Shown here: positions 20,601-60,490 of the stretch, in pieces
Position numbering within the stretch: position 1 is the stretch's first letter
Layout of the letters: the number at the start of each line of letters is the position of its first letter
Assembly: GCF_030851345.1 (NCBI RefSeq)
Contig: NZ_JALPNU010000001.1
Location: 124,001 to 188,000, forward strand
Reading direction: 5' to 3'
DNA from: Marinifilum sp. D714
GTDB lineage: Bacteria; Bacteroidota; Bacteroidia; Bacteroidales; Marinifilaceae
Length of the DNA stretch: 64,000 nt
Notes under the pieces: generated by a model
What the model saw: only the letters and a program-made list of their open reading frames with translations
Databases searched by the model: none
What the model was told of the DNA's origin: nothing
Made by a program: the position numbers and the translations under genes

Positions 20601-20981
20601 CTGCACTTCCTTGATAACAGGAACAGGATCTTTTTTGGTAATGATCACAAAATCCTCAACAATTTCGTACTTTACCGGTGCTTGCTGACAAATTTCATTC
20701 ATCACCTCTTCCAAACTGGCATCTTTCATGTCCAACTGAACTTCAATCTTATCGTTTATTTCATGCACATTGTACATGAAATAAGTTCCTGTTTGATGGT
20801 TTAAATCTTCCAACACATCAACCAATGATGATTTGACCTGAACACTAACTTGTTGTCCAAGAAGAACAGATGCAGAAAGCTGCAAACTTCCAACAAGAAT
20901 TAAAATAAAACTTAGCTTCATAACAAGCAGGGTTTTTCGAATGGAAGGTGACATACACCTCCACATAAGGTTTTTTTTCAT
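17667..20981 (-). CDS. SusC/RagA TonB-dependent transporter with STN signalling domain (locus 1)
   Basis: 1104 residues from ATG 20981, chosen because MKKNLMWRCMSPSIRKTLL matches the paralog at 37465; the frame opens 14 codons earlier. Order: signal segment, STN domain at about 45-115 (VLEDLNHQTGTYFMYNVHEI), carboxypeptidase-regulatory-like domain at 128-215, TonB-box region AEVVVVGYGT, plug at 225-345 (VRVRGATSLTG; LYVIDGVPT; LKDASASAIYGSRAANGV), and a 22-strand barrel to the end. It imports a ligand delivered by SusD. The STN domain contacts FecR to report substrate. The N-terminal 200 residues are almost identical to those of locus 2; the rest is not. Confidence 0.96.
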   Translation of the reverse strand: MKKNLMWRCMSPSIRKTLLVMKLSFILILVGSLQLSASVLLGQQVSVQVKSSLVDVLEDLNHQTGTYFMYNVHEINDKIEVQLDMKDASLEEVMNEICQQAPVKYEIVEDFVIITKKDPVPVIKEVQEKKKLKGKVTDKYGEPLPGVSVVIKGSTTGVATDINGNYTLELENPNAVLIFSFVGMLPQEVVYNGQEVENITLTSDTEQMAEVVVVGYGTTAVRDFTGSVARVSEKELEMKNVPSSISLLQNMAAGVMVSGNTGRPGETVRVRVRGATSLTGSNEPLYVIDGVPTDDSEILNSIPPSDIASVDVLKDASASAIYGSRAANGVLMITTKRGRLNEKAKFSVTYNYSTDSQIKNFSMLNGDEFRSFLTDLANQTLVVDPGNRTAENILDPDGGYVGDADTDWFDLVKQTANRQNVDLSVRGGSKDISYFISGSVMDHKGMVVHDDLTRYSGRVNLDININPKFKIGTRINLSYTDQSQSGTSMFLAQGERPDLPVYKEDGVTFYEDNPVANSTKINNSDEYRLSGNLYGELTVLKDLKFKTSFSVNQYMNYNYQFSPSYLSWYNEASASKAESRGYNTVLDNTLSYAKTFNEVHNIDFVGGVSYEDSENQSGYLSKSGFAMDEIYTNVSAGTDFDRSSDSKRGRSLFSSFARLNYKYKDKYLFTVTARYDGSSMFGKNNRYGFFPSGAIAWRINKEDFLSDADFINDLKLKVSAGKTGIQNLNSYSNRDLYRATKYNDQPGIEHSQIGNKDIQWELSTQYDAGLDFALFNYRLTGSLGYYRKDTEDLIRLFSFPSSMAVEDMYYNIGSVRNQGFEFNIKAKIIDRKDFVFDLGLNLATNKNEVRKLEEEGAVENSSGTIVQGTGSQVLAVGHAMGSFFGYEYNGIIQNQERIDELNANAVDNGHSSYYGTLYPGNLEFTDLNGDGKVDSKDKTIIGNPDPDLFGGMYTNMKYKRFSLTANFGFQIGGLKYYGKTLQNVPSQLVGLVDYNLYNRWSPENTDAEIPAIYLGQGVPALTKMSLHDASYFRLQDLRISYDIPEIKGLPISGQVYVSGTNVFTITSYPGTDPATVNANGNFGGNYETSYPGIRTYSVGLKLNL

Positions 20982-21040
20982 AACTTTATGGTCTAGATTA
21001 ATACTGCCATTGACAATTCTCAATGGTTGTTATTTGTTAA

Positions 21041-21072
21041 AACAGGGAATGTGGCCGCATTTCCTGTTTTTT
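21041..21072. other. Hairpin in the fecR-susC gap, locus 1
   Basis: AACAGGGAATG / CATTTCCTGTT, an 11-bp stem with one mismatch enclosing TGGCCG, lies in the leader of susC. A run of T follows it on the plus strand, and A6 before and T4 after on the minus strand. A copy with the same stem is at 37527-37554. It may be an attenuator or processing site on the fecR-susC message. Confidence 0.5.
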
Positions 21073-21110
21073 ATGTGCTCTTGGGTGGCCGCCACAAAAG
21101 CGCAATATCT

Positions 21111-22307
21111 TTATTCAGGTTTCCCTACAATTATTTTATCATCTTTAATAGCAAATTTTACATCGGCTATCTTTTCAATCATTTCAAGTGTAAAGTCCAA
21201 GGATTTGTCTTTCTTGGCTGCACCTGTAAATCTGTATTCACGATACTTGTAATCGGTAAAGAAGAATTCAACATTGTACCATCGGCTTAACTGATGGCAA
21301 ATTTCTTCCAATGACTGATCTTTATAACGAAACACTCCATCTTTCCATGAGGTATACAATGCTGTATTTACCTTTTCTACCTTAAATCGATTGTCTCCTT
21401 TTTTTACTGTAGCCTGAAATCCGGGCTTCAACAACTCCTTATTGCCCAAACAACTTAGCTCTACGCTACCCTCAACCAAAGTCGTTGAAATGTGCTCCTC
21501 ATCATCGTATGCTGATATATTAAAGCTTGTTCCCAGCACCTTTACTTCGGTATCGTGAGACGCTATCACAAATGGTTTGCTCGGATTGTGCGTAACTTCG
21601 AAATAGGCTTCTCCAGTTAATTCCACTTTCCTTTTGTTTCCAACAAACTGCACAGGATATCTTAAGCTCGATTCCGAATTCAACCAAACTTTTGTTCCAT
21701 CAGCTAATACCAGCGAGTACTCTCCTCCTCTTGGAATTTCAATTTGATTGTAAATCACCCTGTCTTTAGCAGAAGAAGCATTATCATATATCAATTCGCT
21801 ATCGGCATTTTTTTGAATCAAAGTCCCATCCGCTTCAGTTATCAACTCCTTGTCACTCTCTTCAAGATTCACTTTTTGTCCATTTTCAAGCGTAAGTACT
21901 GCCTTTTTAGTGCCAATGCTTGATATTTCCGCAAAATTGTAGTCCTTTTCAAAATCATAATCATTTCTTACCTGCTCAATCATGAAATAGCCAACTGTAA
22001 ATAAAACTACAACCGCTGCGGCATAAGGCAACCAGGTATGTAATTTTCTTACTTTAGATCTCTTTTCAGGCTTCGATAATGATTTGCTAATATTCAACCA
22101 TGCATTTTCTTTTCGAATTTGATCCAGCTTGCTCAAAGCATCACTCTCTTTAAAAAGAGCCAAATATTTGGCAAACTCCTCCGCATTGGCCTCATCTTCT
22201 TTCAGCCATTCCTGTAGCTTTTGAGCCCCCGAATCAGAAATCCTTCCTTGCTGATATTCTTGAATTAGCTCTATAATATGTTCTTGCGAAATGTGCATTT
22301 TCTTCAT
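21111..22307 (-). CDS. FecR-family anti-sigma factor (locus 1)
   Basis: 398 residues. The cytoplasmic N-terminal sigma-binding part (HIIELIQEYQQGRISDSGAQ) precedes one membrane span near 93-114 (YAAAVVVLFTVGYFMI), the periplasmic FecR domain (IPRGGEYSLVLADGTKVWLN; GEAYFEVTHNPSKPF; VLGTSFNISAY) and a C-terminal DUF4974 domain (DQSLEEICHQLSRWYNVEFF) that contacts the STN domain of SusC. It holds the neighbouring ECF sigma factor at the membrane until the transporter is loaded. It lies between sigma (210 bases upstream) and susC (129 bases downstream). It is roughly nine-tenths identical to the locus 2 protein. Confidence 0.95.
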   Translation of the reverse strand: MKKMHISQEHIIELIQEYQQGRISDSGAQKLQEWLKEDEANAEEFAKYLALFKESDALSKLDQIRKENAWLNISKSLSKPEKRSKVRKLHTWLPYAAAVVVLFTVGYFMIEQVRNDYDFEKDYNFAEISSIGTKKAVLTLENGQKVNLEESDKELITEADGTLIQKNADSELIYDNASSAKDRVIYNQIEIPRGGEYSLVLADGTKVWLNSESSLRYPVQFVGNKRKVELTGEAYFEVTHNPSKPFVIASHDTEVKVLGTSFNISAYDDEEHISTTLVEGSVELSCLGNKELLKPGFQATVKKGDNRFKVEKVNTALYTSWKDGVFRYKDQSLEEICHQLSRWYNVEFFFTDYKYREYRFTGAAKKDKSLDFTLEMIEKIADVKFAIKDDKIIVGKPE

Positions 22308-22517
22308 TGTTTAAACCTATAAGTGTGTTTTTGGGAAACGGGTGACAAGTTTTTTCAACTTTTTTCCAAAATATCTTTCAAAGTAGTGAATAATGGGAAA
22401 GTTGAATGAGTAATGAGTATGCAAAGTTCGGAACTCATAGCTACTTCCTCAACTTTATACTTTATACTTTATATCCCGATTCTCGGGACCAGAAGAGCTG
22501 ACTTTACACTTGTAGCT

Positions 22518-23069
22518 TTACGGTATCAAAATCATCACCAATACATCCAAATTACTGCGCAACTGCTTTAAAGCTCTGGAATAATGTGTTTTTACTGTAT
22601 TGATGGAAATATCCATTTCTTCAGCAACTTCGGCATATTTCATTTTCTCAAAAGCGATGGCTTCGAAAACGGCTTTGCATTGGGCAGGTAAAAGAGCAAT
22701 CTCTTTATAGAGTTTTTCTTTTCTTTCTTCCAATTGCTGACTTTCGTATTTGTCTTCGATGATATCGTAGGCCTTATTCTCTATTTCTTCGAATCGAAAT
22801 TTTTGATCTTTTTTTATCTGATTGATGGAATTGTTGCGAACAATAGTAAACAGGTATGACTTTATGGAACCAGTGAATTCTATCATTCTCTCCTTTTCCC
22901 ACAAATTGATGAAAGCTTCCTGTACAATGTCCTCTGCTTTCTCGTAGGAATCGAAGTACTTATAGGCAAATACGCAAAGCGGAGTGTAATACAAATCGAA
23001 CAACATACGAAGACCTGTTTGATCTCCATTTTTAAACTTTTGAATGATATCTTGTTCGTGTTGCTCCAT
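22518..23069 (-). CDS. ECF RNA polymerase sigma factor (locus 1)
   Basis: 183 residues. Region 2 (FDLYYTPLCVFAYKYFDS; AEDIVQEAFINLWEK) binds the core and the -10 element. Region 4 (LPAQCKAVFEAIAFEKMKY; EEMDISINTVKTHYSRALKQ) is the helix-turn-helix. It matches the FecI-like Bacteroidota family 1 ECF factors that pair with FecR and STN-bearing SusC. It is expected to transcribe susC/susD of its locus; cross-talk with the near-identical factor at 39059-39610 is likely. A 33-base sequence upstream is shared with that gene. Confidence 0.95.
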   Translation of the reverse strand: MEQHEQDIIQKFKNGDQTGLRMLFDLYYTPLCVFAYKYFDSYEKAEDIVQEAFINLWEKERMIEFTGSIKSYLFTIVRNNSINQIKKDQKFRFEEIENKAYDIIEDKYESQQLEERKEKLYKEIALLPAQCKAVFEAIAFEKMKYAEVAEEMDISINTVKTHYSRALKQLRSNLDVLVMILIP

Positions 23070-23080
23070 ATTTATTGCGA

Positions 23081-23113
23081 TAAAAGTAAAAAAGCTTACG
23101 GAAAATGCAAAAG
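23081..23113 (-). promoter_or_regulatory. Conserved upstream box of sigma gene, locus 1
   Basis: A 33-base stretch containing GCTTACGGAAAAT, starting 11 bases before the start codon, differs at only one position from 39622-39654 in locus 2, whereas flanking bases diverge. The conservation and place suggest the sigma-gene promoter or leader. Confidence 0.45.
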
Positions 23114-25617: not shown

Positions 25618-25815
25618 TCATTTCTCCAATAGGGCTTCAATCTCCAATGGGTGTAGGTCAAAACCAATAATGATTCCATTCGCATCGATTAATAAGTTCT
25701 TCCCAACAGAGCCAAACTGTCCTCCCATGATTTGATCTCCGGTATCAAAAACATTCATCCAATTGAATTCATGTTTCTTCATCACCTTTAACCAATCTGC
25801 TTTTGCTTCCTTCAT
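25618..25815 (-). pseudogene. tlpA fragment, C-terminal third only
   Basis: The 65 residues read as the end of a TlpA-like thioredoxin: [19 protein letters not shown], then VGKNLLIDANGIIIGFDLHP. The core with the CxxC motif and everything before it is missing. The frame stops being TlpA-like at 25813-25815, exactly where enolase sequence begins on the opposite strand. The apparent start Met is therefore likely chance. It cannot be redox active. It is related to the intact TlpA proteins at 28995 and 44571. Confidence 0.8.
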
Positions 25816-26611
25816 GGAATTTATGATAGCACCTCATAATGCACCTAATTTTGAAACTGCCATCCGAATGGGTATTGAAACTTTCCACTCATTAAAAAAA
25901 GTATTGTATTCAAAAGGATACAATACAGCTGTTGGAGATGAAGGTGGTTTTGCTCCAAACCTAAAATCTAACGAAGAGGCTGTTGAAGTAATTTTGGAGG
26001 CAATTAAATCAGCTGGTTACGTAGCTGGCCAGGATATTTCCATTTGTCTGGACCCTGCCTCAAGTGAAATGTGGAAGGATGGACAATATCATTTCTTCAA
26101 ATCCGATAAGAGTTTTAAAACTTCGGAAGAAATGGTGACCATTTGGGTAGAATGGGTTGAAAAGTATCCAATCGTTCTACTTGAAGATGGGATGGCTGAA
26201 AACGACTGGCATCGCTGGCAATTGCTAACCGAAAAACTTGGAGAAAAAGTTGAGTTGGTTGGAGATGACATTTATTGTACCAATCCTAAGATCCTTCAAG
26301 AAGGTATAGATAAAAGTGTGGCCAACTCCATTCTTATCAAGCTCAATCAAACTGGAACATTAAGCGAAACACTGGACACCATGCAGCTAGCTAGTGAAAA
26401 TAATTACAATTGTTTTGTTTCTCATCGTTCTGCTGAAACCGAAGATACCACCATTGCAGATCTTACTGTTGCATTAGGCGCAGGACATTTAAAAACGGGA
26501 TCTGGTTGCAGAAGTGAAAGAATTTCTAAGTTCAACCAATTGCTTAGAATTGAAAGAATGTTAGGTGATAAAGCTGTTTTTGCAGGAATTAAAACCTTTA
26601 AAAATCAATAA
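25814..26611 (+). pseudogene. eno: Truncated enolase, C-terminal barrel only
   Basis: 265 residues from ATG 25814 align to about residue 165 onward of bacterial enolase (normally 430). Seen: [91 protein letters not shown] and [20 protein letters not shown]. The metal and catalytic residues of the barrel are kept, but the N-terminal domain and first barrel strands are absent, so glycolytic activity is not expected. SGCRSER replaces the usual S(L/M)SRSD(R), pointing to drift or to a divergent paralog. No stop or frameshift interrupts the remainder, so truncation is fairly recent or the fragment is still used. Confidence 0.85.
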
Positions 26612-26913: not shown

Positions 26914-27606
26914 TTAATTTTTTAACTGCCAATTAATTCCACAATCAGAATAATACTTTTGAGCCAACTTAAGGCATTCTTTCTTTTGCCAAGAAGTTAA
27001 CGTCTCAAACTCATCAAAAAATAAAGCCATAGATATAGGATTTTGAGGTGCTTTCCTTATCGTTTTTAGAATAGATTTTTTGCGCAAACGATAGGCCTTT
27101 TTTACCTGATCTTTGTATCTTTTCAATTTAGCCTTATCCGCTTCATTAATTGCCTCGTGCTCCGTTGCCTCATAATTGGCTACCCAATCCATTTGCTCTT
27201 TCAATGGCCTTAGGTACATCTTATTATATGTCTCATTCACCCTGGCAAGTTCTGAATTCTCAAATGAATCATTGATTTTTAAATCAGATAAATTCTTTGA
27301 ATTAAGATTAAAACTAAACTTCCCATATTTAAACACCCAATAATTTACTTCTCTCTTATCTTCTAAAACCAATGTTAACTTATATGGAGGTTTTATTTCA
27401 TTAATCTCAAAACTAAAGTTTTCTTCCTTTACTTTTATATCAGTAGAAATGACTTTTTCATTATCATTCATGGTTTTCAACTTTAATTCTACTGATGAAT
27501 TCTCATATCCTATTAATTTACCATCAATAGTTACAACCTCTTTGTTACAAGAAGACATAATAAAACCAATTATTAATATTGCAATATATCTTTTTTTCAT
27601 ATTCAA
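26914..27606 (-). CDS. DUF4369-like lipoprotein without thioredoxin domain
   Basis: 230 residues with a lipobox (IIGFIMSSC). Residues 24-115 look like the DUF4369 N-terminal beta domain found before TlpA thioredoxins (VVTIDGKLIGYENSSVELKL; FSFEINEIKPPYKLTLVL). Residues 120-230 are the helical linker (EADKAKLKRYKDQVKKAY; APQNPISMALFFDEF). The protein ends where a TlpA protein would begin its thioredoxin domain. It may be a truncated TlpA or a genuine substrate-sensing partner. A decayed TlpA copy lies just upstream (27655-27990), and it is the last gene of locus 2. The start could also be the Met two codons later. Confidence 0.75.
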   Translation of the reverse strand: MNMKKRYIAILIIGFIMSSCNKEVVTIDGKLIGYENSSVELKLKTMNDNEKVISTDIKVKEENFSFEINEIKPPYKLTLVLEDKREVNYWVFKYGKFSFNLNSKNLSDLKINDSFENSELARVNETYNKMYLRPLKEQMDWVANYEATEHEAINEADKAKLKRYKDQVKKAYRLRKKSILKTIRKAPQNPISMALFFDEFETLTSWQKKECLKLAQKYYSDCGINWQLKN

Positions 27607-27654: not shown

Positions 27655-27990
27655 TTCTTTTCTAAAAAATCTTCAACATGATGTCCTCGAAAATTTTTAA
27701 CACAATTGTACCTTTATTACCAAACAAGAAATTAGCAGGAATACACTTTACACTACATTTTTCTATAAGACTCTTCATACCTCTTACCTTGTGCCATGGT
27801 AAATTTCTTTTTCTACAGCGTTAAGCCATTGTACTTATTTTTATCACATAATTTTGAAATGGGCCAAGAGGTTGCACCATGTATCAACTTTACAAATATT
27901 GAAGCATTTGTACATTTAAGCTTGCTACAAGCTATTTTTTTGTTCTTATTACAAGAAAACAAGGCAATACATAGTATTAACATATTTCAC
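27655..27990 (-). pseudogene. Decayed, internally deleted tlpA copy
   Basis: Base-level similarity to the intact tlpA at 28995-30083 is clear. 27667-27850 follows its 3' end (CTTCAACATGATG at 27669, AGCAGGAATAC, CCATTG) and 27858-27975 follows its 5' end (GGGCCAAG, ACTTTACAAATATTGAAGC, ACAAGAAAA). The middle of the gene, roughly 29220-29925 in the intact copy including CxxC, is missing. Translation of the remainder meets many stops (after QWLNAVEKEIYHGTR, for example). It is a dead duplicate flanking the M64 peptidase gene. Confidence 0.8.
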
Positions 27991-28007: not shown

Positions 28008-28955
28008 TTATTTATTGTTTTTATCATTTTTTAAAAAATCTTCAAAGCTACATGCTTTCCCCATTAAACTATGAATACGATTATAAATTTGATACCTAGA
28101 AGGAGCATTAAATGTTGTTTTCTTAAAACCTCTCATTATACTTTGCTTTGTTGGTCTATACAAACCTTTTTCATATGTGTGCCCGCCTTCAAACACACCA
28201 ATATCTTCGTAACCAGGTAAGCCAATAAACTTACTCCATTTTACTTTTTTAGGATCAGAATGATATGAAATATTATACGCACTTTCAGTATTTTTGTATA
28301 GATAAAACTCTTCAGGCAATGAATAATATCTTTTTGCAAAACTGTATTCATCGGCCAAGAGACCAAAAGCATGACCAAATTCATGCAGTGCATTCACATC
28401 TCTATTTTCTGTTTTAGCCGCAGCACTGTAATAAGCAACATTACTTTCCCAAGGAGCAAATCCACCGTATTTTTTATCATTTACTCCAACTATAATAAAA
28501 TCTTTTGGAGATTTCTCTCTACCTAATACTTTTTCAGCATAAAATATAATTTTATCATCTGAAGATGAACCAATATTTCTTTGCTTACCAAAATTACCAA
28601 ACCCACAATTAAGCACAGTAGTTTTTATGATTCCATCATCGCCATAATCGATACCTTCATCTTTACTTTCAAGATAAATAACCTGAAAATTGAAATAGTT
28701 CCTATATGTTTTAAAAGGCTCAGTTGAGAATATTCGATTATAACAAGCTATAGCTGCTAAATCATACATATGACCTTTTACAAGATCTTTTTTGGTGAAT
28801 CCATCACCCATATAAATGATATTTATTCTATCCTCTCCAAAATCACCAATATTCCAAACTTCACCGTGTTGATGAATTTCAGGTTGACAAAAAGACAGCT
28901 TTGAGATTGTTATTAAAAACCCTATAAACAGAATAGCTATAATTGATTTTCTCAT
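28008..28955 (-). CDS. M64-family (IgA-peptidase-like) secreted metallopeptidase
   Basis: 315 residues from the Met at 28955 (MRKSIIAILFIGFLITISKL signal peptide); the frame opens 11 codons earlier. The Peptidase_M64 domain fills the protein: INIIYMGDGFTKKDL near the start, and the zinc site HEFGHAFGLLADEY near residue 191 with the two His, catalytic Glu and downstream Asp-Glu-Tyr typical of the family. It is expected to be exported and to cleave proteins or peptides. It lies 39 bases after a tlpA in the SusC/D locus 2, suggesting that the imported nutrient is peptide-derived; that is inference. Confidence 0.92.
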   Translation of the reverse strand: MRKSIIAILFIGFLITISKLSFCQPEIHQHGEVWNIGDFGEDRINIIYMGDGFTKKDLVKGHMYDLAAIACYNRIFSTEPFKTYRNYFNFQVIYLESKDEGIDYGDDGIIKTTVLNCGFGNFGKQRNIGSSSDDKIIFYAEKVLGREKSPKDFIIVGVNDKKYGGFAPWESNVAYYSAAAKTENRDVNALHEFGHAFGLLADEYSFAKRYYSLPEEFYLYKNTESAYNISYHSDPKKVKWSKFIGLPGYEDIGVFEGGHTYEKGLYRPTKQSIMRGFKKTTFNAPSRYQIYNRIHSLMGKACSFEDFLKNDKNNK

Positions 28956-28994
28956 TATATTTTTTTTACATATACCATTAATAACCAAAATCTA

Positions 28995-30083
28995 TTATTT
29001 TAAGTATCCCTGCAAGAATTCTTCAACATGATGCCCTCGAAGATCTTTAGCTACAATAACACCTGTATTATCAAGTAACCAATTGGCAGGAATACCTTTT
29101 ACACCACATTTATCGGCAAACCTATCAATATCTCTTACATTATACCATTGTAAATTTTCCTTCTTTAGAGCCTTTAACCATTGGCTTTCATCTTTGTCGC
29201 ACGATATTGAGATAATCTCAAAGCCCTTATTATGATACTCTTCGTAGTCCTTTTTTAGATATGGAATTTCTTTACGACAAGGACCACACCAACTTGCCCA
29301 AAACTCAATCAAGACATATTTGTTTTCCTTCAGTATATCTTTTAAAGCAACTCGTTTTCCTTCAACATCCTTAAAGTTGAAATCATAGAATTTTTTACCT
29401 ACAGAAACTTTTTTCTGAATGGCTATCAAGCTATTGGTTTCTTTATATATCTTGTTCCAATATTTTATCTCAGTTTCGTAAACCTTGCGATCCAATTGAT
29501 TAATTAGTTTTATCGTTTGAGCAGGTTTAGATCCCAAATTACGAGAAACCCCACAGGCTAAAACGGCATGTATAGGATTCATATATCTCAAACTGTCGTA
29601 AAGTTCTGCAATTCGTTGATTAGCCTTACCGGAAATGGCATAGACTCTTTCTTTCTCTTTGCTATTTGCTGTTTGCCAATCTAATTTTTCGGCTTCTTTA
29701 CGGTAGTGCAAATTGTGTTTCTGATATTTCTCATCCTGATAAAGTTGACGAAATTTCTGATCGTATTTTCCCCCAGTATAATTGAATGCTCCACCCTTTA
29801 GCATTTTCAAATCAAACTCTCCTGTTTCCTGCATAATACCAAGAGGATACCTTTGATTCTCAACACTAACATAAATATATCGTGGTGAAACCACTTCTGT
29901 TTCATACTCAAAATAGGCAACAAAATTATTAAACTGGGCCAAGGTGTCGTATCCTTTTACAGACTTTACAAGTATTGAGGCTTCAGCACTTTCAAGGTCA
30001 CTACAGTCAACCTTTAGTTTCATCTTACTGTTTCCACAAGAAAAAAGGGTAAGGCATGCCAATAACGTATATAATCTATACAT
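28995..30083 (-). CDS. TlpA-like thiol-disulfide lipoprotein (locus 2)
   Basis: 363 residues from the Met at 30083, giving the lipoprotein signal MYRLYTLLACLTLFSC; 18 more codons upstream are open but lack signal character. The DUF4369-like N-terminal domain at 20-110 and a helical linker precede a thioredoxin domain at about 240-363 with WASWCGPC (near residue 264) and cis-Pro in VKGIPANWLLD. It is anchored in a membrane facing the periplasm and probably reduces disulfides of a partner or imported substrate. It follows the PKD-like gene after 142 bases and precedes the M64 peptidase. It is the template of the decayed copy at 27655-27990. Confidence 0.92.
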   Translation of the reverse strand: MYRLYTLLACLTLFSCGNSKMKLKVDCSDLESAEASILVKSVKGYDTLAQFNNFVAYFEYETEVVSPRYIYVSVENQRYPLGIMQETGEFDLKMLKGGAFNYTGGKYDQKFRQLYQDEKYQKHNLHYRKEAEKLDWQTANSKEKERVYAISGKANQRIAELYDSLRYMNPIHAVLACGVSRNLGSKPAQTIKLINQLDRKVYETEIKYWNKIYKETNSLIAIQKKVSVGKKFYDFNFKDVEGKRVALKDILKENKYVLIEFWASWCGPCRKEIPYLKKDYEEYHNKGFEIISISCDKDESQWLKALKKENLQWYNVRDIDRFADKCGVKGIPANWLLDNTGVIVAKDLRGHHVEEFLQGYLK

Positions 30084-30225
30084 AACAATTGTATTAAAAA
30101 AGTGAATTGATTTGCTATTTCCACTTTGCTCAAACAATAATAATTTCTTTGACTATATCGTCTGAACAAAGTAGAAATAGATTTGTCCTAAAAGTTTCTA
30201 TTAGGACTATAAAAGAAATGTATGT

Positions 30226-31731
30226 TTACCACCAAGGATTTCCATCAGCAGTAAGCATTTGAGCTGGTTTTCCACAAACGTTTTTAAACGTATTATCTAT
30301 AGTTTTATTTGCAGGGTCAACAACTATAACAGATCCTTTTAACTCTTCAGTGCTACTTTCATCGTATGTAGCTACCCAAAGCTTTGAACCTTTAATACTC
30401 ATCTCAAATTTAAGAGGCTTACCAAATTCAGCAGGAATATCAACGATCTTAGTTAACTTAGGGTTAAGTGAAGGTGATGTGTATATACTATTACCAATAA
30501 TAAAATAAAAATTGGTTCCAACCAACTGGCATACACTTTCATCATTTAATCCTGATACTGGTAAAGCCGTACTTGAATTAGTAATTACCGGATCTCCCTT
30601 AGGTTGATACCATTCTAATTCCTGAACTGTCTTTTTATTATGAATTGTAATTCCAGAATTGTTATAAACAACTACATCAAGATTCTCTGTCTTTGAAGTA
30701 TAGTCCGCATTATATGACGAATTCCTCAACATATTCATAACACTATAACCATCTAATGATGGAAGTCCCTCAATTTCTTGTACATTATCATACAAGTAAG
30801 GATTCCCAACAATCCCATTTATTGGATCACTTTTAGTATAGGTTATAGTATATAGTTTATTAGATATTTTATCATACCCCCAAAGAACATCACTCGATTG
30901 TCCCATTTGCCAAAGGCCCGACAACGTCCATTCATAATCCTGCCCAAAAGAAGCAGGAGGATTTAAAAGACCTGAAGCATATGGAGCATATCCATCACCT
31001 GTCTGAAAGTAAATCACTGAATTTCCAGTAACCAGTGCCTTAGGTGCAAACTCTTTTCCATTTGCTCCTCCTACATAGGAGTCCTTATTGGCTAAAGAAG
31101 TAGGCAAAAAACTAAATGAATTGGTTTCAATTAATGGATATTCACCCTCTTTAGTTAGAATATTAAAAGTCCATCCATAATCTCTAAAACTTGATTGATA
31201 AGAAAACTTTTTACTCATTTGACTGGCTTTATTTCCTATTTCAATATTTCCAATCATGTTTGTTTTTGTCCATTCAGGATATTCTTCATAATCAGTTCGA
31301 AGATATGATATTAAAGAAGATTGGTCTTGCTTTTCGGACAGCACATAGTAACCAAAACCAAAAGCTGATGTCACATTTAATTTAAAATCAAAATAATATC
31401 TAACACCTGTATTCTTATCTAATACCGTAAAAAAACAGTCATTTGTTCCAAACTGAGTGCTCGTTGGAATGATGTAATCCAAGTTCCTCTCTGTAGAAAT
31501 CGTATCATTTCCTAATCTCCAAACAAATTCAAGTGCCTTTTCATCTTCCACCAAATCTCTTTCTATAATGGGTTCCAAAACCAAACGACTCAGCACCTGA
31601 ATAGATGTGTCTGCAGGAATATCTGATACACTGATGTTATTCAGATCTTTATAATCGTAGTTTCCAAGATCTTCGGAACAACTATAAACTAATATAGCCA
31701 TTACGAATATTATATATTTAGAAAATTTCAT
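30226..31731 (-). CDS. PKD-like-family lipoprotein (locus 2)
   Basis: 501 residues with a lipobox (MAILVYSC). The N-terminal part (GNYDYKDLNNISVSDIPADT; LEFVWRLGNDT; LDKNTGVRYYFDFKLNV) matches the PKD-like family that sits in SusC/SusD/DUF4843 loci of Bacteroidota. The C-terminal half (GYYVLSEKQDQSSLISYL; LWGYDKISNKLYTI; GSVIVVDPANKTI) reads like a beta-propeller. It is probably surface exposed and an accessory binding protein of the SusC/D complex. It lies 15 bases after the DUF4843 gene in the same operon. The substrate is unknown. Confidence 0.88.
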   Translation of the reverse strand: MKFSKYIIFVMAILVYSCSEDLGNYDYKDLNNISVSDIPADTSIQVLSRLVLEPIIERDLVEDEKALEFVWRLGNDTISTERNLDYIIPTSTQFGTNDCFFTVLDKNTGVRYYFDFKLNVTSAFGFGYYVLSEKQDQSSLISYLRTDYEEYPEWTKTNMIGNIEIGNKASQMSKKFSYQSSFRDYGWTFNILTKEGEYPLIETNSFSFLPTSLANKDSYVGGANGKEFAPKALVTGNSVIYFQTGDGYAPYASGLLNPPASFGQDYEWTLSGLWQMGQSSDVLWGYDKISNKLYTITYTKSDPINGIVGNPYLYDNVQEIEGLPSLDGYSVMNMLRNSSYNADYTSKTENLDVVVYNNSGITIHNKKTVQELEWYQPKGDPVITNSSTALPVSGLNDESVCQLVGTNFYFIIGNSIYTSPSLNPKLTKIVDIPAEFGKPLKFEMSIKGSKLWVATYDESSTEELKGSVIVVDPANKTIDNTFKNVCGKPAQMLTADGNPWW

Positions 31732-31746
31732 AATTTAAATTTTAGA

Positions 31747-32568
31747 TTAATAGATTTTGATCCTTGTTTTACTTCCATCAGGGTTTGTTCCGTACACTTC
31801 ATTGTTTTCAAAGTAATCACGCAATTGTGCGATAAACATGAATACAGATGGAGTATGGCTTTGGCTTCCCGCAGATCTTCCTACCGGCATATTATCCCAA
31901 TAATATGGTAAATTCGAGTCTTTACTTACTTTAATATAGGAAGGTGGTATATTAGGATCCGCTCCTTCAAAATAGATTTCCTGCCATTTCAGATAAGTCT
32001 CCAGATAGAAGTTGCCAAATATATCTTTCCAATCTTCCCACCAAATTGGAGGATTCAAGATATCTGAAAAAATTAACTTCGTCGTTAACAAATCTTCTCG
32101 CCCCTTTTCGAAATTTTCATTGGCTTCAATCTGTAAAATCAAACTTTTTTTCTGAGACTTTAACTCCTCTGTACGATTCACCTTTACAAGCAATGTATCG
32201 AACATGACTCCTTTTCTAAAAATCGGATTAATAAGCGCTGTTTTATCCCAATCTGAATCAACAACATTACTTTCCTCTTTAATTAACTCAACTTTGTAAG
32301 ATCGATCGATATCCGAAGGAAGCCCAGAAATAGCTATAGGTACTTTAAATATATAAGAGTCAACATCATTTAAATCCAATGCAAATGAATATTCCAAACT
32401 ATCTTGTCTTTCAATTAATTCATCGCCTCTGGAATTATAATTTTTTGGCATATCAAAATAGATATAAGCCTTATCATTATTAAAACTTAGAAACTCATTC
32501 TCACTTTCACATGAACTTAATAGAAAGATCATTAAAAGCCATCCTGTATATAAAATTTCTTTTCTCAT
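31747..32568 (-). CDS. DUF4843-family lipoprotein (locus 2)
   Basis: 273 residues with a lipobox (MIFLLSSC). The order SENEFLSFNNDKAYIYFDMP, YSFALDLNDVDSYIFKVPIA, SYKVELIKE and SLILQIEANENFEKG followed by PPIWWEDW is characteristic of DUF4843 proteins, which accompany SusD and PKD-like genes. It is likely an extracellular beta-sandwich accessory protein. Gaps of 12 bases to susD and 15 bases to the next gene show a tight operon. No catalytic motif. Confidence 0.88.
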   Translation of the reverse strand: MRKEILYTGWLLMIFLLSSCESENEFLSFNNDKAYIYFDMPKNYNSRGDELIERQDSLEYSFALDLNDVDSYIFKVPIAISGLPSDIDRSYKVELIKEESNVVDSDWDKTALINPIFRKGVMFDTLLVKVNRTEELKSQKKSLILQIEANENFEKGREDLLTTKLIFSDILNPPIWWEDWKDIFGNFYLETYLKWQEIYFEGADPNIPPSYIKVSKDSNLPYYWDNMPVGRSAGSQSHTPSVFMFIAQLRDYFENNEVYGTNPDGSKTRIKIY

Positions 32569-32580: not shown

Positions 32581-34110
32581 TTAATTATTACTGCTCTTTT
32601 CTTCCGGGCCATAAGTAAACTCATCCTCTGGTATTGGTAACTCAAATATGGCTTTTGAAGCTTCAATATTTAAAGAAGAAGATGCTTCTATATTTGTAAA
32701 CAATCTTTTATTGATTAAAAACGTTCTGCCATCTCCCATAAACTCTTTTCTTCTTTCTCTCATCAGGTAAATCGCTACATTATCTGCTTCTGAATTATCC
32801 AATTCTGGAAGTCCACGCTTAGTTCGAACCTCATTTAAGTATTCTAATGCTTTCACATTATCAACATTTATTTTCGACTCACACATTGCATAATAAATTT
32901 CTGACAATCTTAGCACCGCTACTTCAGGATAGGAGATTTTATAAATCTTATTTTGATCTTCTGGTTCTCTATATTTTTGGAAAGGAAAGTTGGAACTACC
33001 AGAGTTTTGATTAAACCAATAATTCAATCGGTAATCTGTACCAGCCCCATCTGGCTCACGACCATATACATAGTTAACAAAGTTGTCAAAACTTGCGCTA
33101 TTAACAGTTAGCATTAAGCCTTGTTTTCCATTATAACCTGGTAATGAAAATTTTTTCCCTGCAACTTTATATAAATTATTAATATGCAATGAAAAAATAA
33201 TCTCCGATGAGTATAATAAATCTCTTGCACCAGGGCCTGATCCTTCTACTTCCTCTTTGGTAGTAAAAGCAATATTTTGATCACCACTTTCAGTTTCTTT
33301 TACAATACGGTTAGCCCAATAGAATGCTCCATCAGTCTCACTTTGATTAAGTAACAATTGTTCAACACGAACAAGCATTCCCATAACAGCAAAGTAATTT
33401 AATCGTCCAACACGATTAGCCAGGATATTATTATATGCCAGCATTGATTCATTATTATCCAAACGCTTATGCCCTTTCCTTATTGGATCATTTTCCAACA
33501 ACTCCAATGCTTTTAACAAATCATTTTTAGCGTTAGTTAATACTTGCTCGCATGTTAAAAACTCGGTAGGCAATTCATTGAATTCGTATCGATATGGAAT
33601 CGCCTTTTGCTCCAGGTCCGCTTGGTTTTGAACAACAGGACCAAACAACTGATATACTTGCAAATGTATAAATGCTCTTAAAGCCAACAATTCTCCTTCG
33701 AACAATTCTGGAGTATCAATGTTGCCACTATTATTGTCTAGTTCAGACAAAATTTGGTTGGCTTGAGCAACGCTCAGATAATAATTTTTCCACCAAGAAT
33801 TTATTCTCGATTTTACTCTTATATTATTATAATCATATTGTGCAAAATAATAATCTTGATGATTAACATCAGATACTTCATAATATTGAGCAAGAACATC
33901 TAAGGTGCCAAAACTCAAATCCCCTGCATGTGAATTAGTTTGTATTAAATTATAATAGAGTCCAGCAACAGCTGAATTAACACCAGCTGTGGTAGACAAT
34001 AGTTCTTCGGCTTCAGCATCTCCCTGAGGCGTAACATCTAGCCAATCATTACACGACGTTAGTAACAAAAAGCACGAAAATATGGTTATGAATGTTAATA
34101 TTTGTTTCAT
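32581..34110 (-). CDS. SusD/RagB-family lipoprotein (locus 2)
   Basis: 509 residues with a lipobox (CFLLLTSC), SusD start DWLDVTPQGDAEAEELL, TPR helices (LLALRAFIHLQVYQLFGP) and C-terminal RagB/SusD signature (YPEVAVLRLSEIYYAMCES; LEYLNEVRTKRGLPEL; MRERRKEFMGDGRT). It is the surface lid for the SusC of this locus. It starts 28 bases after the susC stop. It is intact even though its SusC partner carries a stop codon, which argues that the stop is recent, suppressed or a sequencing error. Confidence 0.95.
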   Translation of the reverse strand: MKQILTFITIFSCFLLLTSCNDWLDVTPQGDAEAEELLSTTAGVNSAVAGLYYNLIQTNSHAGDLSFGTLDVLAQYYEVSDVNHQDYYFAQYDYNNIRVKSRINSWWKNYYLSVAQANQILSELDNNSGNIDTPELFEGELLALRAFIHLQVYQLFGPVVQNQADLEQKAIPYRYEFNELPTEFLTCEQVLTNAKNDLLKALELLENDPIRKGHKRLDNNESMLAYNNILANRVGRLNYFAVMGMLVRVEQLLLNQSETDGAFYWANRIVKETESGDQNIAFTTKEEVEGSGPGARDLLYSSEIIFSLHINNLYKVAGKKFSLPGYNGKQGLMLTVNSASFDNFVNYVYGREPDGAGTDYRLNYWFNQNSGSSNFPFQKYREPEDQNKIYKISYPEVAVLRLSEIYYAMCESKINVDNVKALEYLNEVRTKRGLPELDNSEADNVAIYLMRERRKEFMGDGRTFLINKRLFTNIEASSSLNIEASKAIFELPIPEDEFTYGPEEKSSNN

Positions 34111-34138: not shown

Positions 34139-37100
34139 TTAGAATCTTACATTTAATCCAAAACCAAAGCTACGGGCAAATGGATAATCCGTACCTCTCT
34201 CAACTTCCACATTGGATAATCTAAACAGATCGTTCGCATAAAAACTTAATCGTAGAGCATCAATTCTATACTTAGATAATTTTTTACTGTCGAACTGATA
34301 TGAAAGTGATAAATTACTTAACTGCAATATGTTTTGATTTTGAATAAAGCGTGTTGAGATGAAAGTTTTATCACTTGTATTAATTGCCTTATAAGATGTT
34401 TCGTCACCTGGCTTTTTCCATCTATTAGTCAATGCACGTTTGTCTCCATTGAAATTTGGATTCAAATTTTCAATCTTATCAACCACGGTTTGGTTGTAAA
34501 TATCGCCACCTAACGAATAGGTAAAAACCATATTTAAATTCCAACTTTTGTAGTAAAGATTATTACTAATATTTCCAAACAGTACAGGCTCTGAATTCCC
34601 TCCAATTATCTTATCCTCAGCATCCCAAATCCTTGTAATAGTTTGACCATCTTTTTTGAGAAATAGTTCTTCACCAGTCGCAGGGTCAATACCTAAAGAT
34701 TTAACGGCTTTAATCGTTGTTAATGATTCTCCTTCTTCATACACCAAGCCAGGAACTTTTTTTGCTGCATTATTAGCATCATTAATGGTTTTTAAGGCAT
34801 CTGATATTTTTAATATCTTACTTTCATTATGCGCTAATTGTAAGCCAATACCCCACTCCAAATCCTTTTCCTGATTACGGATTAGCACAGCATTGATATT
34901 GGCTTCGTAACCTATATTCTCAATCTCCCCTAAATTTGCTTTGTATGTTCCACTTGGAAAACCTAGAGATGGAGCCACTGTAATATCGGCCAACATTCCT
35001 GTTGTTCTCTTCTGATAATAATTAAGACTTGTTCTTATTCTTCCTTCTTTTAGAACAAAATCTAATCCTAAGTTGTGAGATTTTTGTTCTTGCCATTTCA
35101 AATTCGGATTTCCATAAGCTTTTAATGTAGCTGAAATAGTGTTATCATATAAAAGGTCTGTTCTGTATGCATAAGTGGTTATTGCCTGGTGAGCTGAAAA
35201 CTCTTGATTTCCTGTTACACCATAGTTATATCTCAGCTTCAACTCCTCCAAAAATCCATTACTAAAAAAGTTTTCTTTATGAATATTCCATCCACCACCT
35301 ACAGACCAGAAAGCTGCAAACTTATTATCTGCTCCAAACTTAGATGACCCATCGTAACGAATAGATAAATCCGCAAAATATTTATCATTATAAATATAAT
35401 TCCCATTAAGAAATACACCTACCGATTTTGATTTTGATGATGAACTATAAGGTTTAGATCCTTCTTTATATTGCATAGCAAATGCAACATCCTGAAATTT
35501 ATCATTCGGAAAGCCTTGAACTGAAAACCCATAACCATCATACTTTCTGTATTCTAATTCACCTCCAAGACCAAAAAACAAGGTATGATTTCCTATTTGC
35601 TTATTGTAATTTAAAACAACATTACTTGAAACATCTAGTGACTTACTATCATTTTTAGACATTTCCCCCCTTTTATCAACAGGCAAGTAACCATAGCCTT
35701 CATCCAAGATTTGCTTCAATGTATAGGATGAACTAAATGGAGATCTATAACTTGATGAATTCGAATCACCATAGTTAATATAAAAACTAGCCTTTAAGCG
35801 TAACGCTTTATTAATATTCCAATCAAAGTTAAATCGTTCAATCACATTATTCGAAATAGTTTCATCTTTGAATGGGAGGTTAGCATCAAAAAGTGGGTTG
35901 GTATCACCATTAGATAATAATGGTAGCATTTCCCCATTTTCATCCTTAAATCTCTCGTAAGGATTTAGAGAGGCATAAGTACTAAAACTTCCATAGGGTG
36001 AATCATAACGTTTCTTTTATGAAAACGATGCATAATTTTGAATGGTGATCTTATCAGCAATACGATAGATCAATTTAAAACCCAAATCAAACTTATCGTT
36101 ACCTGAGTCTTTAATGACTCCTCTGTTATTTCGATAAGATGCATCAATACCATATCTTACCTTATCCACACCTCCTTCTACGTAAAGGGAATGTGATTGT
36201 GACACGGAATTTTGAACAGGTTGAGATAACCAATAAGTATCAACGCCTTCCTGAATAATTTTATACTTATCGTTGTATAATCTATTCTTTTCAATTTGAT
36301 CTTCAGCATCACTCCCTTCATAAAGTCCAGCTAATTTTTCAAATTCCAGCTTCTCTCTCGCATCCATAAGATTATAATCACTTAGATCAGGAAAAGAAAA
36401 ATTTGGTCTAAAATCATAAGTTACTCTCAACTCTCCCGCCTTTGGAGCAACTGTTTCGATAACAACAACACCATTACCAGCTCTTGATCCATACAAAATT
36501 GTAGCGGCAGCATCTTTTAAAATACTCATTGACTTTATACGGTTAGGGTCCAGATCCATCACATATTCAGCAGTATTTTGAAATCCATCAACAATAAATA
36601 TTGGTTGAGTCGATTCATTTTGGAAACTTCCTCTACCCCTGATCGTAAAATCAGGCACGGCATTAGGATTTGATCCTTGAGTGTTACTTTCTTGAATTCT
36701 AAATCCTGCATCCAATACAGAAAGTGTCGTCAACATATTACCAGTTGATATTTTCTGAATATCCTCTTGCTTAAAAGTTGAAACAGCACCTGCAAAACCA
36801 GTCTTCCCTTTATTAAAATAACCAGTTACAACAACTTCATCCAATCCTTCGGTGCTTGATAACAATGTTACATTTAGAACCATCTGGCCAGTATAGTTTC
36901 TTTCTTGTGGCAACATTCCAACAAAAGAGAAAATCAATACTGCATTTTTATCTTCCAATTCCAAAGTATAGTTCCCATTAATGTCGGTAGCAACACCCGT
37001 TGTGCTCCCCTTAATTACAACAGATACACCCGGTAAAGGCTCCCCATATTTATCGGTTACTCTTCCTTTTAGTTCTTTCTTTTCCTGCACTTCCTCTATA

Positions 37101-37465
37101 ACAGGAACAGGATCTTGTTTGGTAATGATTACAAAATCCTCAACAATTTCGTACTTTACCGGTGCTTGCTGACAAATTTCATTCAACACTTCTTCCAGAC
37201 TGGCATCTTCCATATCCAGCTGAACTTCAATCTCATCATCTATTTCATTTACATTGTACATGAAATAAGTACCAGTTTGATTATTCAGATCTTCCAACAC
37301 ATCAACCAATGATGTTTTGGCCTGAACACTAACTTGTTGTCCGAGAAGAACAGATGCAGAAAGCTGCAAGCTGCCAACAAGAATTAAAATAAAACTTAGC
37401 TTCATAACAAGCAGGGTTTTTCGAATGGTAGGTGACATACACCTCCACATAAGGTTTTTTTTCAT
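34139..37465 (-). pseudogene. SusC/RagA transporter with STN domain, interrupted by one in-frame TAA (locus 2)
   Basis: Two open stretches, 36017-37465 (482 residues) and 34139-35929, lie in the same frame and join through the codons between them (KKRYDSPYGSFSTYASLNPY), the well-known start of the SusC barrel. Only TAA at 36017-36019 breaks the gene. Ignoring it gives about 1107 residues, the size of the locus 1 protein. The first part has the signal, STN, regulatory beta domain, plug (LILYGSRAGNGV-like AATILYGSRAGNG) and first strands; the second has the barrel ending SFGFGLNVRF. One base change (for example GAA to TAA) explains it. A plug-only product could not transport. Confidence 0.85.
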
Positions 37466-37526
37466 AACTTTATGGTCTAGATTAATACTACCATTGACAC
37501 AATTCTCAATGGTTTGTTATTTGTAA

Positions 37527-37560
37527 AACAGGGAATGTGGCCGCATTTCCTGTTTTTTTT
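37527..37560. other. Hairpin in the fecR-susC gap, locus 2
   Basis: AACAGGGAATG / CATTTCCTGTT (37527-37537, 37544-37554) followed by T8 on the plus strand. It has the same stem as 21041-21072 in locus 1 and lies in the leader of the interrupted susC. Confidence 0.5.
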
Positions 37561-37598
37561 ATGTGCTTTGGGGTGGCCGCCACAAAAGCACAATATCT

Positions 37599-38795
37599 TT
37601 ATTCAGGTTTCCCTACAATAATTTTATCATCTTTAATGGCAAACTGTACATCTGCCATCTTTTCTATCATTTCGAGTGTAAAGTTCAAGCTTTTGTTTTT
37701 CTTGGCTGCACCCGTAAATCGGTACTCACGATATCTGTGATCGGTAAAGAAGAATTCAACATTGTACCATCGGCTTAACTGATGGCAAATTTCTTCCAAT
37801 GACTGATCTTTATAACGGAACACTCCATCTTTCCAGGAGGTATACAAATTAGTATTTACCCTTTCTACCTTAAATCGATTGTCTCCTTTTTTTACAGTTG
37901 CCTGAAATCCTGGCTTCAACAACTCCTTATTCCCCAAACAGCTTAGCTCTACACTACCCTCAACCAAAGTAGTTGAAATGTGCTCCTCATCATGGTAAGC
38001 TGATACATTAAAACTTGTTCCCAGCACCTTTATTTCGGTATCGTGCGATGCTATAATAAATGGCATATCTGGATTATGACTTACTTCGAAATAAGCTTCT
38101 CCAGTTAATTCCACTTTCCTTTTGTTTCCCACAAACTGCACAGGATATCTAAGGCTCGATTCCGAATTCAACCACACTTTTGTTCCATCGGCTAATACCA
38201 GCGAATACTCTCCTCCTCTTGGAATTTCAATTTGATTGTAAATCACTCTGTCTTTAGCCGAAGAAGCATTATCATATATCAATTCGCTGTCAGCATTCTT
38301 TTGAATCAAAGTTCCATCTGCCTCAGTAATCAACTCCTTGTCATTTTCCTCAAGGTTCACTTTTTGTCCATTTTCAAGTGTAAGTACAGCCTTTTTTGAA
38401 CCAATGCTTGATATTTCCGCAAAATTGTAATCCTTTCCAAAATCATAATCCGTTCTTACCTGCTCAATCATGAAATAGCCAACTGTAAATAAAACCACAA
38501 CTGCTGCAGCATAAGGCAACCAAGTATGTAATCTTCTTACTTTCGATTTCTTTTCAGGCTTCGACAGAGATTTGCTAATGTTCAACCATGCATCTTCTTT
38601 TTGAATTTGATCCAGATTACTCAAAGCCCCACTTTCTTTAAAAAGAGCCAGGTATTTGGCAAATTCATCAGCATTGGCCTCATCTTCATTCAGCCACTCC
38701 TGAAGTTTCTGAAATCCCTCTTCAGAAATTCTTCCTTGTTGATATTCTTGAATTAACTCTATAATATGTTCTTGCGAAATGTTCATTTTCCCCAT
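37599..38795 (-). CDS. FecR-family anti-sigma factor (locus 2)
   Basis: 398 residues, same layout and length as the locus 1 FecR: N-terminal helices (HIIELIQEYQQGRISEEGFQ), membrane span (YAAAVVVLFTVGYFMI), FecR core (GEAYFEVSHNPDMPF; VLGTSFNVSAYHD) and DUF4974 end (FFTDHRYREYRFTGAAKKNK). Differences are scattered conservative changes, mostly in the N-terminus and near the end. It controls the adjacent sigma factor. Because its cognate SusC is broken beyond the STN and plug region, the circuit may be locked off, or may be driven by the locus 1 SusC. Confidence 0.95.
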   Translation of the reverse strand: MGKMNISQEHIIELIQEYQQGRISEEGFQKLQEWLNEDEANADEFAKYLALFKESGALSNLDQIQKEDAWLNISKSLSKPEKKSKVRRLHTWLPYAAAVVVLFTVGYFMIEQVRTDYDFGKDYNFAEISSIGSKKAVLTLENGQKVNLEENDKELITEADGTLIQKNADSELIYDNASSAKDRVIYNQIEIPRGGEYSLVLADGTKVWLNSESSLRYPVQFVGNKRKVELTGEAYFEVSHNPDMPFIIASHDTEIKVLGTSFNVSAYHDEEHISTTLVEGSVELSCLGNKELLKPGFQATVKKGDNRFKVERVNTNLYTSWKDGVFRYKDQSLEEICHQLSRWYNVEFFFTDHRYREYRFTGAAKKNKSLNFTLEMIEKMADVQFAIKDDKIIVGKPE

Positions 38796-38875
38796 TGTTT
38801 ATAGCTATAAGTGTGTTTTTTGAAAACGGGTGACAAGTTTTTTCAACTTTTTTAAAAATATCTTTTAAGGTACAG

Positions 38876-38950
38876 AACAATTGACAATGAACAATGAACA
38901 ATGAACAATGAGTATGCAAAACGTAATTCGTAATTGACAATTCGTAATTT
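38876..38950. repeat. Short tandem repeats upstream of fecR 2
   Basis: Repeated ACAATGA units (about four, 38883-38912) are followed by two CGTAATTCGTAATT-type units around GACAATT (38922-38950). Such low-complexity runs occur between genes in Bacteroidota; here they fill the sigma-fecR gap and are absent from the matching gap of locus 1. Confidence 0.6.
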
Positions 38951-39026
38951 TATTTCTATTGAATGTAGAAGCTGACAGGTTCACAAATGCTTTCAAGTAA
39001 AACAACTTGAATCATTCAGCTATCCG

Positions 39027-39061
39027 CTGATAACTGATAACTGATAACTGATAACTGATTA
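39027..39061. repeat. CTGATAA heptamer array abutting the sigma stop codon
   Basis: Four perfect CTGATAA units and a fifth CTGATTA run directly into the TAA stop of the sigma gene (minus strand, 39059-39061). Confidence 0.75.
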
Positions 39062-39610
39062 CGGTAGTAGAATCATCACCAATACATCCAAATTGCTTCG
39101 CAACTGCTTTAAAGCTCTGGAATAATGTGTTTTTACTGTATTGATGGATATATCCATATCTTCAGCAACTTCGGCATATTTCATTTTCTCGAAAGCTATG
39201 GCTTCGAAAACGGCTTTGCATTGGGCGGGCAAAAGAGCAATCTCTTTATATAGACTTTCTTTTCTTTCTTCCAATTGCTGACTTTCGTATTTGTCTTCGA
39301 TGATATCGTAGGCTTTACTCTCCATTTCTTCGAATCGAAATTTTAGATCTTTCTTTATTTGATTGATGGAATTGTTGCGAACAATACTAAAAAGGTAAGA
39401 TTTAATAGAACCAGTAAAATTAATCATTCTATTTTTCTCCCATAGGGTAATGAAAGCTTCCTGCACAATGTCTTCTGCTTTCTCGTAGGAATCGAAATAT
39501 TTATAGGCAAATACACAAAGGGGTGTATAATACAAATCGAACAACATACGAAGACCTGTTTGATCTCCATTCTTGAATTTTTGAATGATATCTTGTTCGT
39601 GTTGCTCCAT
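39059..39610 (-). CDS. ECF RNA polymerase sigma factor (locus 2)
   Basis: 183 residues, well above nine-tenths identical by eye to the locus 1 factor, with the same region 2 (AEDIVQEAFITLWEK) and region 4 (EDMDISINTVKTHYSRALKQ). The recognition helix residues are the same, so both factors should read the same promoters. The 33 bases at 39622-39654 upstream are conserved with locus 1. The stop codon lies within a CTGATAA repeat array. It is expected to drive the SusC/D, DUF4843, PKD, TlpA, M64 operon. Confidence 0.95.
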   Translation of the reverse strand: MEQHEQDIIQKFKNGDQTGLRMLFDLYYTPLCVFAYKYFDSYEKAEDIVQEAFITLWEKNRMINFTGSIKSYLFSIVRNNSINQIKKDLKFRFEEMESKAYDIIEDKYESQQLEERKESLYKEIALLPAQCKAVFEAIAFEKMKYAEVAEDMDISINTVKTHYSRALKQLRSNLDVLVMILLP

Positions 39611-39621
39611 ATTAACCGTGG

Positions 39622-39654
39622 TAAAAGTAAAAAAGCTTACGGAAAATCCAAAAG
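39622..39654 (-). promoter_or_regulatory. Conserved upstream box of sigma gene, locus 2
   Basis: 33 bases with one difference from 23081-23113; the same distance (11 bases) to the sigma start. Likely the promoter or leader shared by the duplicated regulatory module. Confidence 0.45.
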
Positions 39655-52694: not shown

Positions 52695-52708
52695 CGCAAA
52701 ATAGGATC

Positions 52709-53326
52709 TTATAAATTTATTTCCAGTAAAATCGCCACCAAGTAGGCATGTTTGCCTAGCTTTTCTCGCAATTCTCGGTAGGCATTTAATTTATGTGATT
52801 TCACTGTATTAATGGTCAAACCCATGATATCAGCAATTTCCTGATTTTTTAATCCCAATAAACTGTATCGGATAATTTGTTGGCGTTGTTTGGGCAATTC
52901 ACCAATGAATTTGTATAGCAATCGAGATACTTCTTCAGAAAGAACTTGATCCAAAAAAAATTCTTCGGTTTCCAATTTAGGTAGAGACTCTGCAATGTAT
53001 TTGTTTTTTACCTGTTCATGCTTGATGTTATTCAAACATTTGTTGCGAACAGCTCTATACAAATACACCTTTAAAGTAATTTCGTTCTGGTATTCATCCT
53101 GCTTTTCCCACAAGCTTACAAAAACCTCTTGCACCAAATCCTCACTCAAATTAATATCAGATACAAAAGTATTTGCAAATCCTACAAGACTTGCAAAATA
53201 CTGATCAAATACTTCTCTGAATTTGTCCCTGTTGAGTACTATTTTATTAGATTTGGTCAATGGGTTTGTGGGTTTAGATTTGGCTACAAAATAAATGCTT
53301 TTATTTGAATCAGAAAAACTTTGCAT
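52709..53326 (-). CDS. ECF RNA polymerase sigma factor (locus 3)
   Basis: 205 residues from the Met at 53326 (MQSFSDSNKSIYFVAKSKPT), chosen because sigma region 2 (FDQYFASLVGFANTFVSD; SEDLVQEVFVSLWEKQ) starts about 37 residues later; the frame is open to 53452 but those 42 residues look unlike a sigma factor. Region 4 is LPKQRQQIIRYSLLGLKNQ and ADIMGLTINTVKSHKLNAYR. It pairs with the FecR at 51186 and presumably transcribes susC/susD of locus 3. The true start could be anywhere between the two Met codons. Confidence 0.92.
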   Translation of the reverse strand: MQSFSDSNKSIYFVAKSKPTNPLTKSNKIVLNRDKFREVFDQYFASLVGFANTFVSDINLSEDLVQEVFVSLWEKQDEYQNEITLKVYLYRAVRNKCLNNIKHEQVKNKYIAESLPKLETEEFFLDQVLSEEVSRLLYKFIGELPKQRQQIIRYSLLGLKNQEIADIMGLTINTVKSHKLNAYRELREKLGKHAYLVAILLEINL

Positions 53327-53594
53327 GATTTCCTTCCAACCGCACCAATTCATTTCTGCACAAATATTGTGTAACATATCCATATTAATTTCACAATTAT
53401 TTTCAATATCAACAATTATACTTATGTTTGTGAAGTGCATACACCAGCACAACTTTTACACCAAAGGAAACCTCTAATATTTCTGTTAAGATCAAATCTT
53501 AGGTATAATTTTTTACCTATTTTTACCACCCCTAAGAGAATTTAACAATACCGATGCTTTTGCATCATTTTTTAAACAACAAGTACATTAACTA

Positions 53595-56861: not shown

Positions 56862-56885
56862 ACTATAGCTATAAAGATAAAAGTA

Positions 56886-56913
56886 AAGCCGCTGAATATT
56901 CAGCGGCTTTTTT
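56886..56913 (+). terminator. Terminator of the tricorn-like gene
   Basis: AAGCCGCTGAATATTCAGCG pairs with itself (AAGCCGCTGAA / TTCAGCGGCTT) and is followed by a T run. Confidence 0.88.
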
Positions 56914-60472: not shown

Positions 60473-60490
60473 TCAAATAATAATCTTTAC

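Follow-up and report, generated by a model that had tools for sequence, protein, structure and literature searches.

A SusC transporter gene probably lost through a recent nonsense mutation in an accessory operon of Marinifilum sp. D714 with signs of recent recombination

Does the SusC gene of the second SusCD locus in this stretch of Marinifilum sp. D714 DNA (the window, 64,000 nucleotides) still specify a transporter, and if it has been lost, how recently and in what genomic setting? On the minus strand, positions 34139-37465 form a single SusC frame made of 482 residues, a TAA at 36017-36019, 625 further residues and a terminal TAA. The first-pass annotation had claimed that two gene parts share one frame and that this TAA alone splits them, and both claims hold: the 482 and 625 residues are read in-frame, the frame contains no second lesion, and the barrel start quoted at the time, SPYGSFSTYASLNPY, sits in frame past the stop. 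By profile matches, the N-terminal part (36020-37465, minus strand) comprises a weak STN-like region (PF07660, 16.1 bits against a cut-off of 28.4), a carboxypeptidase-D-like domain (residues 132-213) and a plug (residues 225-333; PF07715, 48.2 bits), while the C-terminal part (34139-36016, minus strand) is an open beta-barrel frame (PF00593, 80.5 bits). The two halves match complementary portions of the SusC family model TIGR04056, positions 2-347 with 302.5 bits and positions 359-981 with 334 bits, each falling under the cut-off of 368.25 bits when taken singly; read through its stop in the genome search, the gene (SusC2 hereafter) reaches 648.2 bits, flagged with one TAA. The SusC signature TIGR04057 is also present (49.9 bits, cut-off 46.2), and RagA and other SusC chains were matched among solved structures. 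The DUF4843 and PKD proteins of the operon have no meaningful PDB match, and an assignment as peptide importer from solved structures was set aside. What the gene does not encode is an unbroken chain able to form a barrel, the chain ending at the TAA.

SusC2 is the sole gene with an internal stop among the 29 over-cutoff SusC matches (of 56) in its own genome. Two further candidates were discarded: on contig C11 a TAG flagged in a SusC match falls upstream of an intact 1209-residue gene, and a match with one TAA on contig C31 is a short protein that is not a SusC. The genome holds no high-identity second copy of the transporter half, the next best match being 41% identical; for the N-terminal half the best other match is the SusC of locus 1 (56%).

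Behind SusC2, all on the minus strand, lie its SusD partner directly downstream (32581-34110, 509 residues, PF14322 and PF07980), a DUF4843 protein (31747-32568, 273 residues), a PKD-like protein (30226-31731, 501 residues; PF16407, PKD_2), a TlpA/AhpC-TSA thioredoxin-like protein (28995-30137, 380 residues) and an M64 peptidase-like protein (28008-28988, 326 residues). The statement that all downstream partners are undamaged stands for these five, which are open frames, but fails past M64, where the sequence turns to debris: a TlpA C-terminus remnant broken across two frames (27660-27814, minus strand), a detached TlpA C-terminal fragment (25618-25818, minus strand; 29-32% identical to two TlpA proteins) and a 5'-truncated enolase reduced to Enolase_C (25763-26611, plus strand; 53% identical to the full enolase of contig C28 over its residues 158-426). 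An ORF of 230 residues (26914-27606, minus strand), weakly DUF4369-like (16.4 bits, under the cut-off), resembles the N-terminal half of TlpA without its thioredoxin domain. The truncated enolase is a second enolase of this genome, placed between TlpA-like pieces; the housekeeping enolase on C28 had also been flagged with a stop, and it is an intact 427-residue gene whose TAA is its own end.

In comparisons of fetched pieces, positions 1-25294 and 52708-64000 of the window are collinear with congeners and the middle stretch differs: its place is taken in G001 by 388384-401113, while G002 and G003 carry other content. As judged from these alignments, locus 2 is part of an accessory region that is being rearranged, a hotspot where the SusCD operons vary among congeners. 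At the same hotspot in G003, the SusC of another operon (L112 1169-4842, on G003:C5) is split by a frameshift in which stop and start overlap by 4 bases. Elsewhere in the window, two tRNA genes with identical Rfam scores lie about 300 bases apart (10622-10695 and 10921-10994).

The upstream end of locus 2 tells a different story from its transporter. A FecR-type anti-sigma factor (37599-38795, 398 residues) and an ECF sigma factor (39059-39610, 183 residues, TIGR02985), both on the minus strand, adjoin SusC2, as in a sigma/anti-sigma-controlled transducer. Together with the SusC signal region they make up a sensor cassette (36901-39653, minus strand) near-identical to locus 1 of G001: 98.2% over 36885-38914 (2030 bp) and 96.2% over 39042-39653 (612 bp), with only 4 differences in the 1359 positions of the core from 38259 to 36901. 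Outside the cassette, collinear segments longer than 250 nt are 86.9-93.0% identical between the window and G001 (a background of about 90%), and locus 1 of the window compares with locus 1 of G001 at 84-97% per 200 nt, without any near-identical block. A near-identical core against such a background suggests that the cassette of locus 2 was recently exchanged with a G001-like lineage, which as donor would be the simplest direction. The intergenic stretch between sigma factor and FecR, which separates the two matching segments, differs from G001. This stretch (38875-39055) holds short direct repeats, and other genomes contain pieces of it about 36 nt long; a mobile element was considered here and rejected, since the window shows no repeats other than the short direct ones, and G001 a single inverted pair of 23 nt.

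Locus 1 of the window (17667-23069, minus strand) is intact, with its SusC at 17667-21023, FecR at 21111-22307 and sigma factor at 22518-23069, and it bears another barrel. Between the two loci, identity is about 90% over a block that starts just upstream of the sigma gene and runs to about SusC codon 190, past which their alignment is noise; in protein terms, identities are 173/183 for sigma, 366/398 for FecR and 179/200 for the first 200 residues of SusC. In G001 the cassette bears the barrel of locus 1, the G001 SusC being identical to SusC1 at 1044 of 1104 residues. Nucleotide matches of the locus 2 transporter half to L021 (67.8%) and G052 (65.0%), for their part, end at 36845. The alignments place an approximate recombination junction within SusC at 36896-36904 (minus strand), near the end of the carboxypeptidase-D-like domain, the last identical base being 36901. 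The locus 2 transporter was not found in G001-G004 (E 1e-100; 13 of 34-43 candidates scored per genome, G004 being 80% complete). Locus 2 is thus a patchwork, with sensor cassette and transporter from different lineages. Close-copy cassettes on different barrels are seen at 36901-39653 and 20380-23113 of the window and at 3260-6198 of L106.

How old is the loss? A comparison with relatives, proposed earlier as a check, gave a sense codon at the position of the stop in all six relatives aligned there without gaps (L021, L010, L011, L012, L013 and L014), five of which have intact genes, the broken one being L021. Past the stop, SusC2 diverges no faster than its relatives: dN is 0.344 between the window and L010 and 0.361 between L021 and L010, 0.406 and 0.411 for the same comparisons with L011, and 0.433 between L010 and L011, where L021 serves as comparator although it carries a stop itself. 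There is hence no acceleration. On the N-terminal side of the stop, SusC2 has a slightly larger dN than L021 (0.227 versus 0.207 against L010, 0.293 versus 0.270 against L011). In most pairs synonymous sites are saturated and no dN/dS ratio was formed, so that the evidence for recency is dN together with the lack of other lesions. A neutral frame of SusC2 composition is expected to gather 3.2-4.9 lesions for every 1% of divergence if indel ratios of 0.05-0.1 are assumed; the frame is otherwise clean, which places the loss within about 0.6-0.9% divergence. SusC2 thus combines a disabling lesion with an otherwise conserved frame, as expected of a recent pseudogene, and the suggestion in the first-pass annotation that the mutation is very recent is supported both by dN past the stop and by the lack of a second lesion.

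Stop-bearing SusC genes are uncommon but not exceptional. A full-length search of 14 genomes (47-56 candidates scored per genome) found in-frame stops in 6 of 496 SusC matches, a set that includes some partial or under-cutoff rows and leaves out frameshift-split genes, and to which the Marinifilum sp. D714 genome contributed its 29 over-cutoff matches, G001, G003, G009 and G015 118, G033 and G037 85, G032, G038 and G048 147, and G012, G020, G023 and G030 117. Besides SusC2, the cases are one each in G015, G037 and G030 and two in G012. Those in G015 and G037, both one-contig genomes, have one in-frame TAA each and are followed by an open SusD. One G012 gene has a TAG where the G023 copy is open, the copies being identical at 3645 of 3666 bases, and its SusD is itself in two pieces; this 99.4% identical pair (L145 1186-4851 in G012, L148 in G023) is a natural one for studying fresh SusC loss. 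More than one lesion is found in the G030 gene, and also in the other G012 gene, G012:C40:59741, which has two stops and a broken frame. Outside this set, 69 loci similar to the transporter half include four with frames under 850 residues, namely L021 (in-frame TAA), L044 (in-frame TAG), L083 (frame-split) and L026 (contig end); a SusC of G006 has an in-frame TGA, and the congener G003 has three SusC genes split between frames, one of them within the hotspot. An apparent bias toward early truncation, all first cases (window, L021, G015, G037, G006 and L044) being stopped before the barrel, disappeared with the lesions of G012 and G030 at about 58% and 68% of the frame. In the literature searched we found no paper on SusC pseudogenes in polysaccharide loci, which is not proof that none exists.

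The case that bears most on the cause of the loss is L021, from a Carboxylicivirga MAG. It is the closest relative found (69% in the transporter half), collinear with locus 2 over the genes from SusC through PKD and matching TlpA further on, and its SusC is cut by a single in-frame TAA of its own (9764-9766) at a different codon, 78 columns upstream of the window stop. That neighbouring lineages each lost the gene independently is suggestive, and would fit a knock-out favoured by selection, such as one that evades a phage or bacteriocin using SusC2 or that sheds a costly surface protein; a neighbouring SusC in the G003 version of this hotspot, split by a frameshift, points the same way. In Elizabethkingia, parallel nonsense and missense changes in susD were read as selection for loss (PMC5458099), and docking suggests that the tail spikes of crAss-like phages make contact with TonB-dependent receptors (PMC10569736). 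With stops in 6 of 496 SusC matches, however, two near relatives could be hit by chance, and because the background is near 1% the losses in L021 and the window do not prove selection; we regard a selected knock-out as unlikely, if worth keeping in mind.

The lesion could also be an error of sequencing, assembly or strain mixture, in which case the gene would be intact or the cassette wrongly joined on from a sister species. In favour of this, the assembly is a draft in 105 contigs, contamination stands at 1.74%, and the cassette core almost matches a different species. Yet the stop is a codon inside a continuing frame, without a long homopolymer, the contig (C17) spans 438 kb, and since neither flank of the cassette is G001-like, two breakpoints would have to be assumed for a false join; moreover, G015 and G037, each assembled as one contig, also have single in-frame stops. 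We consider an error of this kind rather improbable.

A functional role of the truncated product, which would act as an STN-plug signal or decoy on the FecR of locus 1, locus 2 or both, is very improbable. STN domains of SusCs do take part in anti-sigma signalling, as stated in PMC7782687, and binding across loci is plausible given that the sensor region and FecR are nearly of locus 1 type. But the cell is expected to degrade a fragment with a partial barrel, the match to STN is weak, and other SusC lesions, at about 25%, 28%, 44%, 58% and 68% of the frame, follow no common domain boundary. Programmed readthrough or phase variation restoring full-length SusC in some cells, which the conserved frame past the stop might recall and which the earlier label "phase-like" had implied, is scarcely credible, since recency alone explains that conservation, the stops of the window and L021 lie at different codons, the longest base run at the stop is 4, leaving no slippage tract, and 14000-52500 contains no inverted repeat of at least 60 nt.

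The reading that we favour, and hold to be likely, is that of a recent nonsense, loss-of-function allele of the SusC transporter in a recently recombined accessory operon: the loss would be real, recent and fairly ordinary, and an assembly error is less likely. A SusC barrel has 22 strands. The cell would make at most an exported fragment of 482 residues, with the sensor, the plug and the barrel start, which would be degraded or at most be present without a barrel; unable to form one, it would leave locus 2 importing nothing via its own SusC. SusD and the other lipoproteins of locus 2 may still be made, and signalling by locus 1 may activate the operon, because its sigma factor, FecR and SusC sensor region copy parts of locus 1 type. 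Indeed, the region running from FecR into SusC, including the sequence upstream of SusC, is close to G001 locus 1 and about 90% identical to locus 1 of the window, which makes shared control plausible, and cross-talk between the two loci is conceivable. The loss itself might be due to drift, or selection might have acted against a surface protein that is useless or mis-wired. A published SusC study (PMC7782687) reports that some SusC mutants fare worse than SusD loss and speculates on stalled barrel assembly; since stalling is seen there as possible, a truncated SusC need not be harmless.

The system to which locus 2 is best compared is that of the SusC/RagA TonB-linked transporters with SusD (TIGR04056; solved relatives RagA 6sm3 and the SusC homolog 8aa4), with which it shares the carboxypeptidase-D-like domain, plug, barrel, SusD behind and ECF sigma and FecR in front; unlike them, its frame is cut by a stop, and its cassette and transporter are of different lineages. 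Like the susD of Elizabethkingia anophelis, SusC2 is a Sus outer-membrane component lost by nonsense mutation; the Elizabethkingia case (PMC5458099), however, rests on population data, with repeated hits in one strain and a mutY defect, whereas here we have one genome and one more distant relative. The invertible outer-membrane protein loci of Bacteroides fragilis resemble locus 2 in that recombination alters surface transporters, but there by reversible inversions (PMC4747536, PMC5729914), in contrast to a one-way junction within SusC without a long inverted repeat.

The chimeric junction, more than the stop itself, is the part worth following. A broader hypothesis, which we put forward as a long shot, holds that sigma factor, FecR and SusC sensor form one cassette that is recombined onto unrelated barrels across species; here a G001-like locus 1 cassette would have put a foreign transporter under the circuit of locus 1, and the stop would be an early escape from this mis-wiring. 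No paper on sensor-cassette exchange between SusC genes was found in the literature searched, which does not prove that there is none. If sensor cassettes do move as units, then the imported substrate and the inducing signal would be separable in evolution, and this, if true, would bear on how SusCD loci are annotated and on what is predicted from them.
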